A DNA stretch of 64,000 bases, taken from Myxococcales bacterium (GTDB lineage: Bacteria > Lernaellota > Lernaellaia > Lernaellales > Lernaellaceae). Under the pieces are notes generated by a model. It did not search any database, was not told the origin of the DNA, and worked only from the letters and a program-made list of their open reading frames with translations. A program made the position numbers and the translations under genes. Below are positions 56,327-63,659 of the stretch, in pieces. The DNA is taken from contig JAAYVF010000085.1 of the NCBI GenBank assembly GCA_012517325.1, positions 1-64,000 on the forward strand, given 5' to 3'. Position 1 is the first letter of the stretch, and every line of letters starts with the position of its first letter.

Positions 56327-58423
56327 TCAATCCTCGACCAGTTGCACCCATTCGAGTTGCAGCAGGGCGTAGACCAGACGGGCGCTGCGCGCCGGGTCGA
56401 GCGGGCTTTTCGCGAACAGTTCGGAAACCCGCTTCTTGCCGTCGATCATCGCCACCAGGCGCCGTTCGCGCTGGTCCGACAGCAGGCTCCCCAGGTCGAA
56501 ATCCAACGTCACCGGGGCCAGGATGTAGGTGGACATCTCGTCCAGGATCGCTTCCACTTCCTCGGCCGACGCGCTTTCCTGCAGGGCGTGGAGGATCAGG
56601 CGCGGCAAGTCGAGGTTGAGCGGCGGCAGATCGATCTCCGGCTTCAGGTCGCGTTCGAACTGATAGCGGCCCTCGCGCCAGGCGAAAAGCGCGTAGAGCT
56701 TGTTTTCCATCTGCCCCATCAGCGTTTCGAACAGCTCGTGGGGCGAAAGCAGGTTGGCGCCGAGCAGCACCTCGCCGAACGGCCGGCCGCTCTGGTGCGC
56801 GGCGGCCAGCAGCCGGTCGCGTTCCGCGGCGGTCAGGCGGCCCTGGCGAACCAGGATTTCGCCCAGCGCGAACGGGCCGGGCCGGTTCGACAACACCTGC
56901 ACCGGCATGCCTTGCGACAGATAGATGAATTCTTCCTCGTCGCCGTGCTGCAGGGACAGGCAGCCGGTGGCCTTGCCGAGAAACAGGTAATGCAGGAAGC
57001 GGCCCAGCGGCATTTCCTCCAGGTCGCCGGATTCCTCGACCACCGTCTCCAGGTCTTCCACCGGCTCGGTGCCGGCGGCGGCGCCGGGGCGGCTTTCGTT
57101 GCGGGCGCGGTGGGCCACGGCGTCGTCGAGGCGGAAGAACAGATCGCCATCCTTGAAGCGGACCAGGCCGAACAGCAGGAACAGGTAGAGCACCTGGAAG
57201 GTGCGGGTGAAGCCGAGGTCGGCGTCGGCGATGATCTCGCCCAGCGTCCGTTCGCCGTCGACCAGTTCGAGCAGTTGCAGTTCGCGCGCGGTGACGTGCA
57301 GATCGAAGGCCGACAGCTCGGGATGCGGCGCTTTTTCCACCACGGCGTTTTTGTTGAGGTACAGGCGGTCTTCCAGTTTCGCCAGGGTGTAATGCCGCGT
57401 GATGCCGTTGACCAGCACCGACAGGATGTCCTGTTCGATCGGGATCATTTCGGCCGGGTCGTCGGTGTCGGGCAGGAGCGCGTACGACCCTTCCTTCCAG
57501 CGGAACGCCGAATTGATCTTCCGGCGGGCCTGGATCTTGAGCATGGTCGCCAGTTCGGCCGGCGTGACGTGACCGCCTTCGACGAGAATTTCGCCCAGCC
57601 GGCGGCCCGACTCCCGCGCCGCGCGCAGGCAGCGCTCCAGCGCGAGGGCGTCCAGGGCCCCGCGGGCGACGAAGAGCTGGCCGAGGGCGTCGTCGGCGAT
57701 GAAGTTGGAGCGGATCATCCGCGGCAGGCCGTCGCGCAGGCGGATTTCGCGGATTTCGTTGAACTCCCGGATTTGCAGGATGCCGTTGTAATGTTGCTGA
57801 TACAGGCGCAGTAAAAGTTCGGGCAACAGCAAGGGCCCGAGCCGTCCGGCGGCCGGCAATTCGGCCTCGACGGGGGCGGGTTTGACCGGCGCGGGCTTGG
57901 GCGCATCCGCCGGTTTCGGCGCCGCGGCCGGTTTTTCCGCCGGTCGCGGTTGCCGCGGCGGTTCCGGTTTGGGCGGTTCCGCTTTGGGCGCGGCCGGCTT
58001 GGGCGCCGGCTTGGGGGCCGCCGCCGGACGGGGATGGGAACCGGGTTGCAGCAATTCGTCGATCGTCGCGATGAAATCCGCCGGCTCGAGCGGCATTTCC
58101 AGGTAGTCGTCGGCCTCGAATTTGGTGCGCGCCTCGAGGCCGAATTTCGATGAACGCTTGAAGGAAGAAAGCAAGACGATCTTGATGTGCGAGGTCTGGG
58201 GATCGCCTTTCAAGCGCTTGCACAGTTCCATGCCGTTGACGTCCGGCAGCAGCACGCCGATCACCATGGCGACGGTGCGCGGCCCCTCGAGCAGATCCAG
58301 CGCCTCGCGCGCGGATCCGGCTTGGCCGACGTCGAAACCTCGTTCGATGTGCAACACGGTGGCGAGACGTTCGGCCAGGCCGCGATCATGGAGCGCTACA
58401 ATCACATGTTTCGGTTTGTTCAT
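56327..58423 (-). CDS. Receiver-like protein with two DUF4388 (PATAN) modules; phospho-site is Gly
   Basis: 698 residues; its ATG overlaps the stop of the upstream gene (ATGA). Residues ~5-120 have the receiver fold, but the phospho-acceptor position is Gly56 (MVIGVLLPDVNG) and the conserved Lys is Met (EMPLEP), so it cannot be phosphorylated normally. A Pro/Ala/Lys linker (~130-190) leads to two DUF4388 units (~195-330 and ~455-600) with HYNGILQIREFNEIREIRL and GKATGCLSLQHGDEEEFIYL. Each unit is followed by the helical tail that mediates protein contacts. It is the last gene of a four-gene operon. Such proteins act in motility, polarity and surface signalling in myxobacteria and cyanobacteria. 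Confidence 0.85.
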   Translation of the reverse strand: MNKPKHVIVALHDRGLAERLATVLHIERGFDVGQAGSAREALDLLEGPRTVAMVIGVLLPDVNGMELCKRLKGDPQTSHIKIVLLSSFKRSSKFGLEARTKFEADDYLEMPLEPADFIATIDELLQPGSHPRPAAAPKPAPKPAAPKAEPPKPEPPRQPRPAEKPAAAPKPADAPKPAPVKPAPVEAELPAAGRLGPLLLPELLLRLYQQHYNGILQIREFNEIREIRLRDGLPRMIRSNFIADDALGQLFVARGALDALALERCLRAARESGRRLGEILVEGGHVTPAELATMLKIQARRKINSAFRWKEGSYALLPDTDDPAEMIPIEQDILSVLVNGITRHYTLAKLEDRLYLNKNAVVEKAPHPELSAFDLHVTARELQLLELVDGERTLGEIIADADLGFTRTFQVLYLFLLFGLVRFKDGDLFFRLDDAVAHRARNESRPGAAAGTEPVEDLETVVEESGDLEEMPLGRFLHYLFLGKATGCLSLQHGDEEEFIYLSQGMPVQVLSNRPGPFALGEILVRQGRLTAAERDRLLAAAHQSGRPFGEVLLGANLLSPHELFETLMGQMENKLYALFAWREGRYQFERDLKPEIDLPPLNLDLPRLILHALQESASAEEVEAILDEMSTYILAPVTLDFDLGSLLSDQRERRLVAMIDGKKRVSELFAKSPLDPARSARLVYALLQLEWVQLVED

Positions 58424-60585
58424 GGCCGTTTCCTGAAGACCGATCGCGTTTTATCGTCTTTCTCTTTTTTCAGCCGTTGTTCGGTATAGTGGAGATCGCG
58501 TTTGTATTCGGTGTTGTGCGGGTCCAGGGCCAAGGCATTTTTAAAATACCGCAGCGCGCCCTCGTCGTCGTCCTGCCGGTTTTTCACCCGGCCCAGCAAG
58601 GACATCAGTTCGGCGTTTTCGGTGTCCAACAGCAGCGCCTGCTTGGCGGCCTGCTCGACGTCCTCCCAGTTCAGATTCGGCGCATCCAGAAATTTGAACA
58701 TGGCCCAGGCCAGCTTGGCGCGGTATTCGCTTTTTTTCGGTAGCAGTTCGGCGGCGCGGCGAAACGACTCGATCGCCGGCCAATAGGACTGCTTTTCCAT
58801 CGCCATCAGGCCTTCCTGATAGGCCAGCGCCGCCTGCTTCTCCTTGTCCGCCTCCTCGGGAGGTTCGCCGGCGCCGGCCTTGGCTTCCGGTTTGGGGGCG
58901 GCATCCAAGCCCAGCTTGCGGGCGTAGTTGCGGCGGGCGCGCGGATCTTTCAGCGTGTCGTACGCGTCTTTCAGGCGCCGGCTGACGGTTTCGGCCATGT
59001 TGCGCACGCGCTGCGGCGCCTTGAGGGTGAAAACGTCGGGATGGAACTTCCGTTCCAACTGCACGTAAGCCTGATGCAGCGCCTCCGGTTCGACGTCGAG
59101 CTTGACGCCGAGCAGGTCGAAGTAGTTCAGGTCGTCCATCCGCACGAAGAAGCTTTTCAACTCGCGGCACTGCTCGCGGAAGCGCGGATCGGCTTCCGGT
59201 TCGTCCGCGGTGGGCGGCACCTGGGTCCGGTAGGATTCGAGGTCGGGATGCGTTTCGACCGCGGCCAGACGCACTACATCGAGGCAGACCAGCGCGCCGG
59301 TCAACCGCAAGGCGGCCATCAGCCCGAGCGGGCTTTCGCCGGCCGCCTCGCCCAGGGTGCGCCGGCCGTCGGCGGCGGCCAGCAATTCGCGCTCGTCGGG
59401 CGTCAGGTGAACGCGCGCCGCGGCCACCTCCCGCGCTTCGCCGAGAAACAGATGGAGATCCTTGTTGGCGGCGTAGTCGGCCTCGAGCGGCGCGGCCGCC
59501 AGGTGTTGCCGGTAACCGTCCAACACGGCGGCGAAGGTTTCGCATTCGAAGGTGGTCGCCTCGGCCGGGTATTTTTTATCGCGATGCAGGATGAAATGGC
59601 CGGCGGGCCAGGCGAAACAGCGGGCGATCTTGCGCCGCGTCTGCTGCACCAGGTGATAGTAGAGATCTTCGGAGGAGAGCACACCCATCTGGGTGATGAT
59701 AGTGCCGAATTTGCGGCCGCTTTCGGCCATCTGCACGGCGGCGTTTTTGTATTGTTCCTCGGTGAGGACTCCATCGGCCAGCAGCATGCGGCCGAGGTGT
59801 TCGTCGGGCAGGGTGGATTGGACGAAAACGATCTTGCCCTCGACGAAATAGACGTGCTTCAACTCGTCGCCGTGTTTGAGTTCCAACAGGCCGCCGAACC
59901 GTTCGCGACCAAGTTTAGCCAACAATCGGCCCAGCAGCCGGGGCTCGAACTCGCCTTGCTCGCCGAGCGGTGGTTCTTCCCGGCTCGGGGCCGCGGCGAC
60001 CGGTGGTGCTGGCGGCGTTTTTTCCGTCTTCGCCGCGGCGGCCGGTTTTTCGGCCGGCGGGGCTTGCGACGGTTTTTCGGCTTTCGCCGCGGCGACCGGT
60101 TTTTCGGCCGGCGGGGCCGGCGGCGCAGGTTCGGGCGCGGCGGCGGGCGGTTCCTTCGTTTCCGGTTTCGGCGCGGCCGCGCGCGGGCGCAACGGGGCGC
60201 GCGTCTCCGGGACGCCGATCAACTGGTTGATTTTTTCGACCAGGTTGATCAGCGGAAACGGGCGGGAGAAGTAGGCGTCGGCCTTGAAGCGGGTCAGCGC
60301 GTCGCGTTCCATCGCTCGGCTCTGGTAGATTTTCGAGACGATGATAACGCGCACGCCCCAGGACTCGCCTTGTTCCTTGGCGATTTTTGAAACCTGCAGG
60401 CCGTTGATGCCCGGCAGCAGCACCTCGACGATCACCAGGTCGTGATTGTTCTGGCCGAAGAGCCGCAAACCTTCCTGGCTACCGGAAACGGCTTCGACGC
60501 GATAGCCCAGGCGCCCGAGCACCTCGGCCAGCTCCTGGCGTTCCGCCTCGTCGGGCTCGATGAGCAAGATGGATTTGGCCGCCAC
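58420..60585 (-). CDS. Receiver-DUF4388-J-domain-TPR protein; phospho-site is Glu
   Basis: 721 residues from a GTG that directly follows the upstream stop, with GGAGGTGGAG before it. The receiver (~5-120) has Glu54 in place of the phospho-Asp (LVIVEVLLPGING) and Arg for the conserved Lys (SRPFPL), a possible permanently 'on' form. An Ala/Pro/Lys/Glu repeat linker (~130-215) precedes one DUF4388 module (~220-345). A J-domain (~480-550; YFDLLGVKLD, KFHPDVF with intact HPD) can stimulate DnaK-type chaperones. TPR repeats end the protein (~590-705; YWPAIESFRRAAELLPKKSE, DDEGALRYFKNALALDPHN). Confidence 0.87.
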   Translation of the reverse strand: MAAKSILLIEPDEAERQELAEVLGRLGYRVEAVSGSQEGLRLFGQNNHDLVIVEVLLPGINGLQVSKIAKEQGESWGVRVIIVSKIYQSRAMERDALTRFKADAYFSRPFPLINLVEKINQLIGVPETRAPLRPRAAAPKPETKEPPAAAPEPAPPAPPAEKPVAAAKAEKPSQAPPAEKPAAAAKTEKTPPAPPVAAAPSREEPPLGEQGEFEPRLLGRLLAKLGRERFGGLLELKHGDELKHVYFVEGKIVFVQSTLPDEHLGRMLLADGVLTEEQYKNAAVQMAESGRKFGTIITQMGVLSSEDLYYHLVQQTRRKIARCFAWPAGHFILHRDKKYPAEATTFECETFAAVLDGYRQHLAAAPLEADYAANKDLHLFLGEAREVAAARVHLTPDERELLAAADGRRTLGEAAGESPLGLMAALRLTGALVCLDVVRLAAVETHPDLESYRTQVPPTADEPEADPRFREQCRELKSFFVRMDDLNYFDLLGVKLDVEPEALHQAYVQLERKFHPDVFTLKAPQRVRNMAETVSRRLKDAYDTLKDPRARRNYARKLGLDAAPKPEAKAGAGEPPEEADKEKQAALAYQEGLMAMEKQSYWPAIESFRRAAELLPKKSEYRAKLAWAMFKFLDAPNLNWEDVEQAAKQALLLDTENAELMSLLGRVKNRQDDDEGALRYFKNALALDPHNTEYKRDLHYTEQRLKKEKDDKTRSVFRKRP

Positions 60586-62754
60586 CTACTCCACCTCCAG
60601 TTTCGTCAATTCCTGGCGCGCCCGCGCGTTGTCGGGGTTGTACTGCAACGCCTGTTCGAAACTGGCGCGCGCCCGGTCGCGGTTGCCGGTCTGCAAATGA
60701 ATGCGGCCCAGGAACGTGTAGGCGCTGTCGAGCACCGGATTGATGCTGATGGCTTTTTCGATCAGATCGCGACCCTGGGCGACGACGGCGGCGTCGTCGG
60801 GCGCGGCGAGGAACGTGGCCCAGCCGAGATAGGCGGAATATTCCGCTTCCTTCGGGCTGAGCGCCCGGGCCTCGGCGAAGTGGCGCTTGGCCGCTTCGAA
60901 ATCGCGCCGGTGCAGGGCGTCCTCGCCGTGCTGGAATTCCAGTTCGCTCTTGACGAGGTTGGCCATCGAAGCGGTGACCTGGCCGGCCTCGGCGACCTTG
61001 GTCTCGTCTTCCTCGCCGCCGAAGAAGTCGTCGAGTTTCAGCGATTCGTCGTCGGCAGCCGGGGCGGTGATTTCCTCCTCGATTTCCCATTCGATGTCCG
61101 GCGTGTCGACCGCTTCCGCGGCTTCGGGCGCGGTTTCGCCGAAGAAGTCGTCGGCCTCTTCCGGCGGTGCGGGCGCGGCCGGAGCGGCCGGTTCCGGCGC
61201 CGCCGGGGCGGGAGTCGCCGCGGCCTGGCCGAACAAGCGCGCGTCGTACCGCTGGCGCGACTGCGGATCGAGCAGGGTCTCGTAGGCCTGGGTCAGCAGG
61301 CTGAAGATCTGATCGCATTTCGCGCGCAGCGCATCGTCGGCTTGCGCGTAAAGATCGTACGGCCGCAGTTCCTTGACCAGGCCGTGGTAGGCGGTGCGGA
61401 CTTGCAGGTCGCCGGCACCGGCCGGCAGGCGCAGCAGGTCGTAGAAGGTAAGCGAATCCAGACCGTCGAAGAGCTGTAAAATCTGGTTGCGGAATTGGTG
61501 CATTCGTTCGCTGACGGCGGCGCCGCGGTCTTCGTGCAGCCGCCGCACTTCCTCCTGTTTCTTTTTCTTGTCGGCGACGTAGGCTTCCTGTTCCTGCAGA
61601 CTGCGGTCGCCGAATCCCGGGTCGCCGATGAAGCGGATCACCTCGATCAGCAGCAGGTAGTAGAGGATTTGAAACGTTTCGGAGAGGCTGAGATTGCTCA
61701 GAGCCACGATCTTGCCGACGGTGCGTTTGCCGTCGATCAATTTGTAGAACTTGGCTTCGTGGGGGGTGAGCAGCATCTCGCCGCTATCCACCAGCGAGCC
61801 TTTCACGCGGCGCAGGCGCTGGTTTTTATATTCGTTGAAGTAGCGCTCCAGACGCGACAGGTTGTAAAAGCGCTTGATGCCCTCGAGCGTCAGGCGCAGC
61901 GGCGCCGTGTCGAGTTGCACCGATTCCGACAGCTTGAAGGAACCGGGGCGGAATTCGTATTCGCCTTCGTCCCAGGCGAAAACGCGCAGGATCTTTTCGC
62001 GAATCTGCGCCTGCATGGCTTCGTAAAGCTGATGCGGCGTAAGAATGCCCATTTCCAACAGCACGTGCCCTTGCTGTTCGCCGGTTTGCACCATGCGTTC
62101 CAGGCTGGAGTTGTATTGCTCGTCGCTGATCACGCCGCGTTCGACCATGAAGCGGCCCAGCGATTCGTTGGCCAGGTTCGAGGTGACGAAGATCGGCGAG
62201 CCCTCGCGCAGGTAGATCACCTTGCTGATCTGCTCGTGCGAAACGCGCAATGCGCCGGTGCGGTGGTATTTGTGCAGGTAAAAGAGCAGGCGGGGGAACG
62301 GCGTTTCGCTCAGCAGGCCGCTGGTGCGCAGGGTGCGCTTGGTTTCGGCCGTTTTCCCGGCCTCGGCGGTTTCCCGGGGCGCGGTTTCTTCCAGCAGTTG
62401 CTGCAGGATCTTGTCGAGTTCGCCGACGTTGACCGGCTTTTCGGAATACGCGTCGACGCCCATCTTGGCGCGCGACTCGTACTGTTCCTTGAATTGCCGG
62501 TAGACCTTCGACAGCAGCACGACCTTGACGGTCTCGCCGCCCGGCAGCTTGCGCGCCCGCTGGCAGACCTTGAGCCCGGTCAGGCCGGGCAGCAGCGCGT
62601 CGAGAATCATCAGATCCGGCTGCAGTTGGCTGAAGGCCGCGAGCGCGTCGTTACCGTTTTTCACCCAGTGGACCTCGAAATCCTTGCCCGTCAGAAAGTC
62701 GTTCAGGACTTCGAATTCCGCGTAATTGCTCTCGCCCACCAAAACCTTTCTCAT
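60586..62754 (-). CDS. Response regulator with DUF4388, degenerate J-domain and TPRs; intact phospho-Asp
   Basis: 722 residues from the ATG at 62754, with GGAGGACGA upstream and a 4-bp overlap with the previous gene. The receiver keeps Asp52 (LMILDALLPGLTG) and Lys (SEKPVNV), so it can be phosphorylated. DUF4388 follows at ~165-300 (HRTGALRVSHEQISKVIYLREG). A J-like domain (~455-530; FYDLLRLPAGAGDLQVRTAY) lacks the HPD tripeptide (ELRPYD instead), so it probably binds but does not activate a chaperone. TPR-like helices close the protein (LHRRDFEAAKRHFAEARALS, DRARASFEQALQYNPDNARA). Its plan matches the next gene, a likely duplicate. Confidence 0.87.
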   Translation of the reverse strand: MRKVLVGESNYAEFEVLNDFLTGKDFEVHWVKNGNDALAAFSQLQPDLMILDALLPGLTGLKVCQRARKLPGGETVKVVLLSKVYRQFKEQYESRAKMGVDAYSEKPVNVGELDKILQQLLEETAPRETAEAGKTAETKRTLRTSGLLSETPFPRLLFYLHKYHRTGALRVSHEQISKVIYLREGSPIFVTSNLANESLGRFMVERGVISDEQYNSSLERMVQTGEQQGHVLLEMGILTPHQLYEAMQAQIREKILRVFAWDEGEYEFRPGSFKLSESVQLDTAPLRLTLEGIKRFYNLSRLERYFNEYKNQRLRRVKGSLVDSGEMLLTPHEAKFYKLIDGKRTVGKIVALSNLSLSETFQILYYLLLIEVIRFIGDPGFGDRSLQEQEAYVADKKKKQEEVRRLHEDRGAAVSERMHQFRNQILQLFDGLDSLTFYDLLRLPAGAGDLQVRTAYHGLVKELRPYDLYAQADDALRAKCDQIFSLLTQAYETLLDPQSRQRYDARLFGQAAATPAPAAPEPAAPAAPAPPEEADDFFGETAPEAAEAVDTPDIEWEIEEEITAPAADDESLKLDDFFGGEEDETKVAEAGQVTASMANLVKSELEFQHGEDALHRRDFEAAKRHFAEARALSPKEAEYSAYLGWATFLAAPDDAAVVAQGRDLIEKAISINPVLDSAYTFLGRIHLQTGNRDRARASFEQALQYNPDNARARQELTKLEVE

Positions 62755-63659
62755 TCGTCCTCCGCGGGATCCCACAGACGATGGACCAAAGCGGCCGCCA
62801 GCAGCGGCACGAGGATTTCGTGATGGCCGATGAGGCGGATTTCCCGGCCGCCGGCCGCGGTCGGGCCGGGATCGTCGGGCGGCCGCGACGGCGCGGCGCT
62901 TTCGAGATCGGCGCAAATCAGACCGCGCGCTTCGCGGCCGGCGCGGCGCGCGGCGTCCAGGGCCCGCCGAAACACTTTCGGCAACCCGACCGGATCGCCG
63001 ATGTTCAGGTGCGCGCCGCCGGCCGATTCGCCGGCGAGTTCGGTCAGCCGCGCGAAATCGCGCGCCGCGACGGCGCTCGGAATGGCGACGCTGTCCGACT
63101 GCGGCGGCGCGCCGTGCACGGTGACCGGCACCCGGTAACGATGGCAGGAAGCCAACACGCTGTAGCGGGCGTAGGACAAGGATTGCGTACCCAGGTAAGT
63201 CGTCGCCGCCCGGCCCAGGCCGCCGTCGTCTTGCTGCGCGGCCTCCAGCATCGCCGCCAGCGCCGCGCCGATGTCGCGGTCGGCCGCGGCCGGCGATCCG
63301 GTGAAGCCGGCGGCCGCCAGCGCGAGTTCACGCCACAGATATTCGCCGTTGACGCTGACCGCGGTGACGATGCCGCGTTCGACCAGATCCGCGAGGACCG
63401 GCCCCACGCCCGCCTCGACCACCGGCGCGCCCAGGGACAGATGCACCGGCCGGTGCGCCGCGCGGGCCGCGACGATCGCCGCCACCAGCTCGCGCAAGTC
63501 TCGTCCGGCCGCCATGGTCGGCAGACTGTCGAACCACTCGGCGAAACCGGCGCCGCCGCCGACCGGTTGGGCCGGCAACGCCGGAAGGCCGCCACACCCG
63601 GCGCAGGGATTTTGGCGCGACGCCGCGTCAAGCTGGAAGGAATCGCCGGTTTTATCCAC
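62751..63659 (-). CDS. Deoxyhypusine-synthase-like protein
   Basis: 302 residues from a GTG with GGAG seven bases upstream. N-terminal CAGC motif (~19-22) of unknown use. The core follows the deoxyhypusine-synthase-like fold: VHLSLGAPVVEAGVGPVLADL, RGIVTAVSVNGEYLWRELAL, YRVPVTVHGAP, DFARLTELAG and HLNIGDPVGLPKVFRRAL. In the family these segments bind NAD and the amine substrate. The catalytic Lys region is not obvious by eye, so activity is uncertain. First gene of an operon with three receiver-DUF4388 proteins, overlapping the next by 4 bp, and probably part of the same signalling unit. Confidence 0.5.
   Translation of the reverse strand: MDKTGDSFQLDAASRQNPCAGCGGLPALPAQPVGGGAGFAEWFDSLPTMAAGRDLRELVAAIVAARAAHRPVHLSLGAPVVEAGVGPVLADLVERGIVTAVSVNGEYLWRELALAAAGFTGSPAAADRDIGAALAAMLEAAQQDDGGLGRAATTYLGTQSLSYARYSVLASCHRYRVPVTVHGAPPQSDSVAIPSAVAARDFARLTELAGESAGGAHLNIGDPVGLPKVFRRALDAARRAGREARGLICADLESAAPSRPPDDPGPTAAGGREIRLIGHHEILVPLLAAALVHRLWDPAEDE

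Follow-up and report, generated by a model that had tools for sequence, protein, structure and literature searches.

What do three receiver proteins do when they are made together from coupled genes and each carries a different residue at the site where receivers are phosphorylated? The question arises in a 64,000-nucleotide stretch of DNA (the window), positions 1 to 64,000 of the forward strand of contig JAAYVF010000085.1 (NCBI GenBank assembly GCA_012517325.1, named Myxococcales bacterium and placed by GTDB in the Lernaellota). Three minus-strand genes in it, C (60586..62754), B (58420..60585) and A (56327..58423), form a trio whose proteins combine a receiver with DUF4388, a Pfam family that we take to be identical with the PATAN domain. 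An earlier note on this DNA suggested that C is signal-responsive, that B permanently mimics the phosphorylated state and that A is insensitive. We give a probability of about 0.6 to another answer: the coupled run produces three pseudo-receivers that act as phosphorylation-independent binding modules, with the pocket residue setting the resting shape of each and binding partners moving it.

The receiver domains lie at 62389..62754 (C), 60217..60576 (B) and 58049..58405 (A), and they match PF00072 at 49.3, 46.4 and 40.1 bits, all above the gathering score of 30.2 bits. Three pairwise alignments to solved receivers and one joint alignment place Asp52 of C (codon 62599..62601), Glu54 of B (60424..60426) and Gly56 of A (58256..58258) at the phospho-acceptor position, as had been proposed, and put Lys106, Arg108 and Met110, in the same order, at the position of the switch lysine. 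The acidic pair that precedes them (positions DD1 and DD2) is Glu8-Ser9 in C, Glu10-Pro11 in B and Leu11-His12 in A by alignment to solved receivers. In its AlphaFold model, the receiver of B has five strands and five helices, and Glu54 sits near the end of beta-3 (E50-55). The pairwise and joint alignments, together with this predicted structure, exclude a mis-registered phospho-site.

Counts at the level of the phylum come from seven genomes (G000-G006). The phylum is probably FEN-1099, which is given as Candidatus Lernaellota or Podoxiota in PMC13248872 and PMC11382960. The window is part of contig 85 of a 5.25-Mb genome in 134 contigs and shows kinship to G006 at the level of the class. 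Five anchors (DD1, DD2, the phospho-site D, the conserved Ser/Thr position T and the switch-lysine position K) were scored in 90 receiver domains from DUF4388 neighbourhoods, 19 of which are trio receivers (7 C, 6 B and 6 A); the neighbourhoods hold 109 DUF4388 frames, and the 40 without a receiver match stand outside all counts. In C the anchors read ESDSK (four times, including the window copy), DSDSK, EADSK and EHDSK; in B, EPESR (twice, including the window copy), EPESQ, EHESK, ENESK and EVESK; and in A, LHGSM (twice, including the window copy), SSSSL, EHASQ, DHASL and DHSSQ.

The phospho-site is therefore fixed by gene in these strings, with Asp in 7/7 C, Glu in 6/6 B and Gly, Ala or Ser in 6/6 A. 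Random substitution in each genome and orthologues with Asp in all three proteins, the two outcomes named beforehand as speaking against such a pattern, are ruled out by these per-clade fixed residues, and neither is seen in the seven genomes. Each gene keeps its own state in six genomes from two families, a pattern that suggests selection or, at the least, fixation long ago. The accompanying Lys/Arg/Met series at the switch position holds for the window copies but is not fixed in B, where the position is Lys in three genomes, Arg in two and Gln in one.

According to PMC12632262, a pseudo-receiver is a domain that is recognised as a receiver but lacks key phosphotransfer residues, and DD2 is a direct metal ligand that is always acidic in receivers and non-acidic in about 80% of pseudo-receivers. 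DD2 is acidic in 0/19 trio receivers, so all three proteins are pseudo-receivers by this published definition (19/19), and none of the 19 has the full canonical set of acidic DD1 and DD2, Asp, Thr/Ser and Lys. The definition of an aspartate-less receiver in PMC4395418 applies to B and A (6/6 each) and to no C (0/7).

The position of C deserves separate treatment. An acidic DD1, Asp, Ser and Lys are kept in 7/7 copies, and the DD2 position is Ser in five, Ala in one and His in one. Since a direct metal ligand has thus been replaced by a non-acidic residue, the Asp of C is unlikely to be an ordinary phospho-acceptor. The residue after the conserved Ser/Thr (T+1) is normally Ala or Gly; in C it is Lys, Ser or Thr, and in canonical DUF4388-linked receivers it is Ala in 11/11. 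DD2 and T+1 both speak against the idea that C is signal-responsive.

The residue two places after the switch position (K+2) is Val in 7/7 C and Phe in 6/6 B; A varies among Leu, Val and Phe. CheY is biased towards inactive conformations by Phe at K+2 and towards active ones by Val (PMC12632262); if this rule carries over, B would not be simply "on" and C would not be simply "off". Glu at the phospho-site often does not activate by itself (PMC4395418, PMC12632262), and with Phe at K+2 in every copy, a permanently mimicking B is possible rather than proven. The interpretation in the earlier note is thus partly supported: the distinct fixed states are there, whereas a phosphate-responsive member is not supported.

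The three pseudo-receivers have kept the Y-T coupling pair, with Ser at T in 19/19 and Tyr or Phe three places before K (K-3) in 19/19. The pair is also kept in 11/11 canonical DUF4388-linked receivers, but in only 7/40 other DUF4388-linked pseudo-receivers (trio against other pseudo-receivers, Fisher p 5e-10, a test that ignores kinship). It is present in every member of 3/3 trio clades and of 0/8 other complete clades, the latter having been grouped by us after the tree was seen. This retention, 19/19 against 7/40, suggests a switch that is driven by binding and not by phosphate.

Pseudo-receivers are common on DUF4388 proteins in this phylum. They make up 59 of 70 classified DUF4388-linked receivers (19/19 in the trio and 40/51 elsewhere, where rows from distant clades, namely the QWD group, L206 and L217, are possibly misaligned at the anchors), and the other 11 are canonical. 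Of 19 neighbouring receivers that lack DUF4388, 16 are complete, the other 3 being truncated, and 13 of these 16 are canonical. For bacterial receivers in general, PMC12632262 puts the share of pseudo-receivers at about 6%.

A tree of 71 DUF4388-linked receivers (the 70 classified plus one truncated row), computed after masking the five pocket columns, separates the trio into supported clades: C at 100/99, B at 100/100 and A at 98/87. A more distant A-like protein in G003, L203, has Ser at the phospho-site, and including it gives A 99/95. The tree does not show a recent tandem triplication, and a common origin of B and C (p-AU 0.53 for the two as one clade) or of A, B and C (0.155) is neither supported nor rejected. 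An invariant column is in itself nothing rare, with 30/118 in the C receiver, 29/117 in B and 12/117 in A. Columns of the relevant residue class are few, however: B has Glu throughout in just 3/117, DD1 and the phospho-site among them, and A is restricted to Gly, Ala or Ser in 4/117, so the fixed classes are more than chance.

The trio follows a fourth minus-strand gene, D (62751..63659), and the four genes lie head to tail with D first. The ATG of C at 62754 overlaps the stop of D as ATGA, the TAG of C directly abuts the GTG of B, and the stop of B overlaps the ATG of A as ATGA. We read D-C-B-A as a translationally coupled run. The coupling and the gene positions had been described before, and only the start of C needed correction: a TTG at 62916, taken from a mechanical list of open reading frames, would add only 54 residues, and the true start is the ATG. 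At the gene run, neither a sigma-70 promoter nor a terminator scored above shuffled sequences. The order D-C-B-A recurs in 6/7 genomes (G000, G001, G002, G004, G005 and G006). In G004, the end of contig 88 cuts A short, and contig 50 ends in a stretch that could be the rest. B is spread over separate frames in G002 (contig C248, with unknown bases) and G006 (contig C6), and in G006 D is also joined to C in a single frame; the broken B genes and the joined D-C frame are probably assembly errors.

The proteins had also been described as sharing one plan, which is true of the N-terminal half (receiver plus DUF4388) but not of the rest, since Pfam finds two DUF4388 domains in A and DUF4388, DnaJ and TPR in B and C. 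PF14332 (DUF4388) is above its cut-off twice in A (698 aa; 57395..57847 and 56576..57031), once in B (721 aa; 59506..59955) and once in C (722 aa; 61870..62322). The DnaJ domain of B (58924..59127) has the HPD motif in the window copy, and the DnaJ-like domain of C (61243..61446) lacks it. Of the J regions, those of B carry HPD in 2/6 genomes, the copies in G002 and G006 being fragmented, and those of C in 0/7; the single HPD in the G006 frame is far upstream of C. Pfam found no DNA-binding output domain in A, B or C, and a fold search with B returned only receivers and TPRs among the 50 matches listed.

Relatives outside the phylum share parts of these proteins. At E 1e-40, a profile of B matches 25/386 sampled genomes, seven of which are those of the phylum, and in 17 of the 18 others the best match leaves out the receiver, starting no earlier than model position 168. 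The out-of-phylum loci examined contain six distinct receiver-bearing DUF4388 proteins, of which four have a canonical and two a degenerate receiver, and no Asp/Glu/neutral set was found in them, the search for the trio as a whole having been limited. A search with C through the contigs of 84,980 species gave, among the 80 loci kept, one relative along most of its length (L059, in G006); the other 79 match the receiver part only.

How might such proteins work? In the reading that we favour, none of C, B and A would be switched by ordinary histidine-kinase phosphorylation. The receivers would instead serve as binding modules whose alpha4-beta5-alpha5 face still changes shape when a partner binds, with the pocket residue setting the resting conformation and partners shifting it. 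In C, the pocket would hold Asp and Lys without a metal ligand, and this pair could be structural or serve dimerisation; in B, Glu would be a built-in bias; and in A, the small neutral residue would be a blank. Most likely, the DUF4388, J and TPR parts would link the three proteins to one another or to partners that they have in common. Speculatively, and by analogy with the PATAN response regulators of Synechocystis, the trio might regulate a type IV pilus-like motor.

Several observations weigh against this reading. G003 has C without an adjacent B: its C lies in two pieces on separate contigs, the gene after it is a different one (by eye an FAD oxidoreductase), and its best-scoring B match is 23% identical, with none above 32% among the matches listed. 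The invariance of Glu54 is a property that it shares with 25% of B receiver columns. Apart from one acidic residue, C still has its Asp, Ser and Lys, and weak or acetyl-phosphate-driven phosphorylation of C may occur; loss of DD2 might weaken the reaction and not abolish it. Next to the trio lie D, in some genomes gmhA, and genes of unrelated kinds, and no pilus tie was recognised among them.

Among the rivals, the closest to the favoured reading would join the three proteins in one phosphate-free complex, in which Asp-type, Glu-type and blank receivers rest at three points of the inactive-active balance, partner binding moves the Ser/Tyr switch, and the DUF4388-J-TPR tails pass the result to a motor or assembly machine; we regard this fuller version as unlikely. 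Equally doubtful is relaxed constraint, under which the receivers are inherited fold spacers whose pockets mean little and DUF4388, J and TPR alone do the work. Orthologues in several other DUF4388-linked clades do vary freely at the phospho-site (N/D/T/A/S/D in one and N/S/E/D/D/D/A in another), the A receiver has few invariant columns, and the out-of-phylum B matches mostly begin after the receiver. However, Asp, Glu and Gly/Ala/Ser persist without drift in C, B and A, the Ser/Tyr pair is kept throughout the 19, and 25% of the columns of the B and C receivers are invariant over two or three families. A second all-Glu clade of DUF4388 pseudo-receivers also exists (4/4: L162, L175, L187 and L200), with Gly in place of Ser/Thr.

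Two further rivals keep phosphate in play. The roles first proposed, with C responsive, B constitutively on and A insensitive, could be made in a fixed ratio so that B and A provide a baseline for phosphorylated C. The residues suit this (Asp with Lys in every C, Glu in every B, a neutral residue in every A), and Glu mimics phospho-Asp in some regulators (PMC4395418), but C has no DD2 in 7/7 and a bulky T+1 in the family of the window, and B combines Phe at K+2 with loss of the switch lysine in 3/6; we consider it somewhat less probable than either of the two rivals above. Very improbable, in our view, is that C is a true weak receiver, fed by small-molecule donors or by an unusual kinase that relies on the Glu or Asp still present at DD1, while B and A act as its decoys. 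Its four retained anchors in 7/7 copies would allow for this, and a non-acidic residue at the metal-ligand position DD2 (PMC12632262) in the same seven copies argues against it. Binding modules with partner-driven shapes thus remain our preferred account of the trio.

Evidence on pili concerns relatives of the trio. In 6/6 genomes that have it (G000:C75, G001:C8, G002:C385, G004:C156, G005:C146 and G006:C1), another clade of DUF4388 pseudo-receivers, with Asn, Gly, Ser or Pro at the phospho-site (L164, L177, L185, L213, L222 and L232), has a PilT-like ATPase of the T2SSE family at a distance of 735-816 bp, measured between matches. PATAN is reported to bind PilB in Synechocystis (PMC10519157, PMC7690835). 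By analogy, this suggests a pilus link at the level of the family only, not for the trio itself.

Gene D encodes a deoxyhypusine-synthase-like Rossmann protein. Its model matches deoxyhypusine synthases and ArgZ (Foldseek, E ~1e-7 to 2e-7, TM 0.5-0.6); nothing is above the Pfam cut-off, the best match, PF01916, being below it in 6/6 proteins scanned. The window copy lacks GAHVVKVG, the HVA-GTDV-H stretch and YRPLTNVV, motifs that are kept in G001 and G002, and on this alignment D is a probable pseudo-enzyme in this genome. SIS genes resembling gmhA adjoin D in 5/7 phylum genomes (L032, L033, L035, L036 and L037) and in 3/6 out-of-phylum loci checked (L251-L253). The D family is present in 136/386 sampled genomes, had no relatives in viral contigs, and may be a widespread partner of gmhA.

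Cyanobacterial PATAN regulators (PixG, PilG, TaxP2, PixE and LsiR) resemble the trio in joining a receiver to PATAN, on our assumption that DUF4388 is that domain. They differ in order, PATAN being N-terminal in the cyanobacterial proteins (PMC10519157) and the receiver coming first in the trio. B and C also add J and TPR parts, and the neighbourhood of the trio showed no recognisable chemotaxis kinase or pilus gene. Another likeness is CmrRST of Clostridioides difficile, in which normal and atypical receivers share one operon and are thought to cooperate (PMC12632262); however, CmrRST includes a sensor kinase as well as a response regulator that is otherwise normal, whereas the trio run has neither a kinase nor a canonical receiver. 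Within the phylum itself, canonical receiver genes also occur as adjacent triplets with a single DUF4388 member (L167, L181 and L190), an arrangement conserved over three genomes. Their receivers have the full DD/D/T/K set in 9/9, so the loss seen in the trio is not general to receiver clusters here.

A close comparison is also with pseudo-receivers and aspartate-less receivers such as FrzS, ChxR, GlnR and BldM/WhiI, which have the receiver fold without the catalytic residues (PMC12632262, PMC4395418). Glu is the commonest substitute for the phospho-Asp (26%), followed by Asn, Ser, Gly and Ala (PMC4395418), and GlnR and RamR keep the Asp for dimerisation and not for phosphorylation (PMC12632262). 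BldM/WhiI heterodimers are a precedent for phosphorylation-independent partner binding (PMC12632262), and the FrzS pseudo-receiver binds SgmX in pilus control (PMC12632262, PMC11580455). The trio differs in having three pocket types in one coupled run, each fixed per clade, and no DNA-binding output that Pfam could find. A 2025 review calls the switching of bacterial pseudo-receivers a mystery (PMC12632262), and a matched Asp/Glu/neutral set on related plans would make the role of the pocket residue testable by swaps among the three co-expressed proteins. That pseudo-receivers are so frequent on DUF4388 proteins throughout the phylum suggests, in addition, that phosphate-free control is tolerated or even favoured by this output domain. 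Judging from sequence, we regard the trio as a co-translated pseudo-receiver set and a variant of the known pseudo-receivers.

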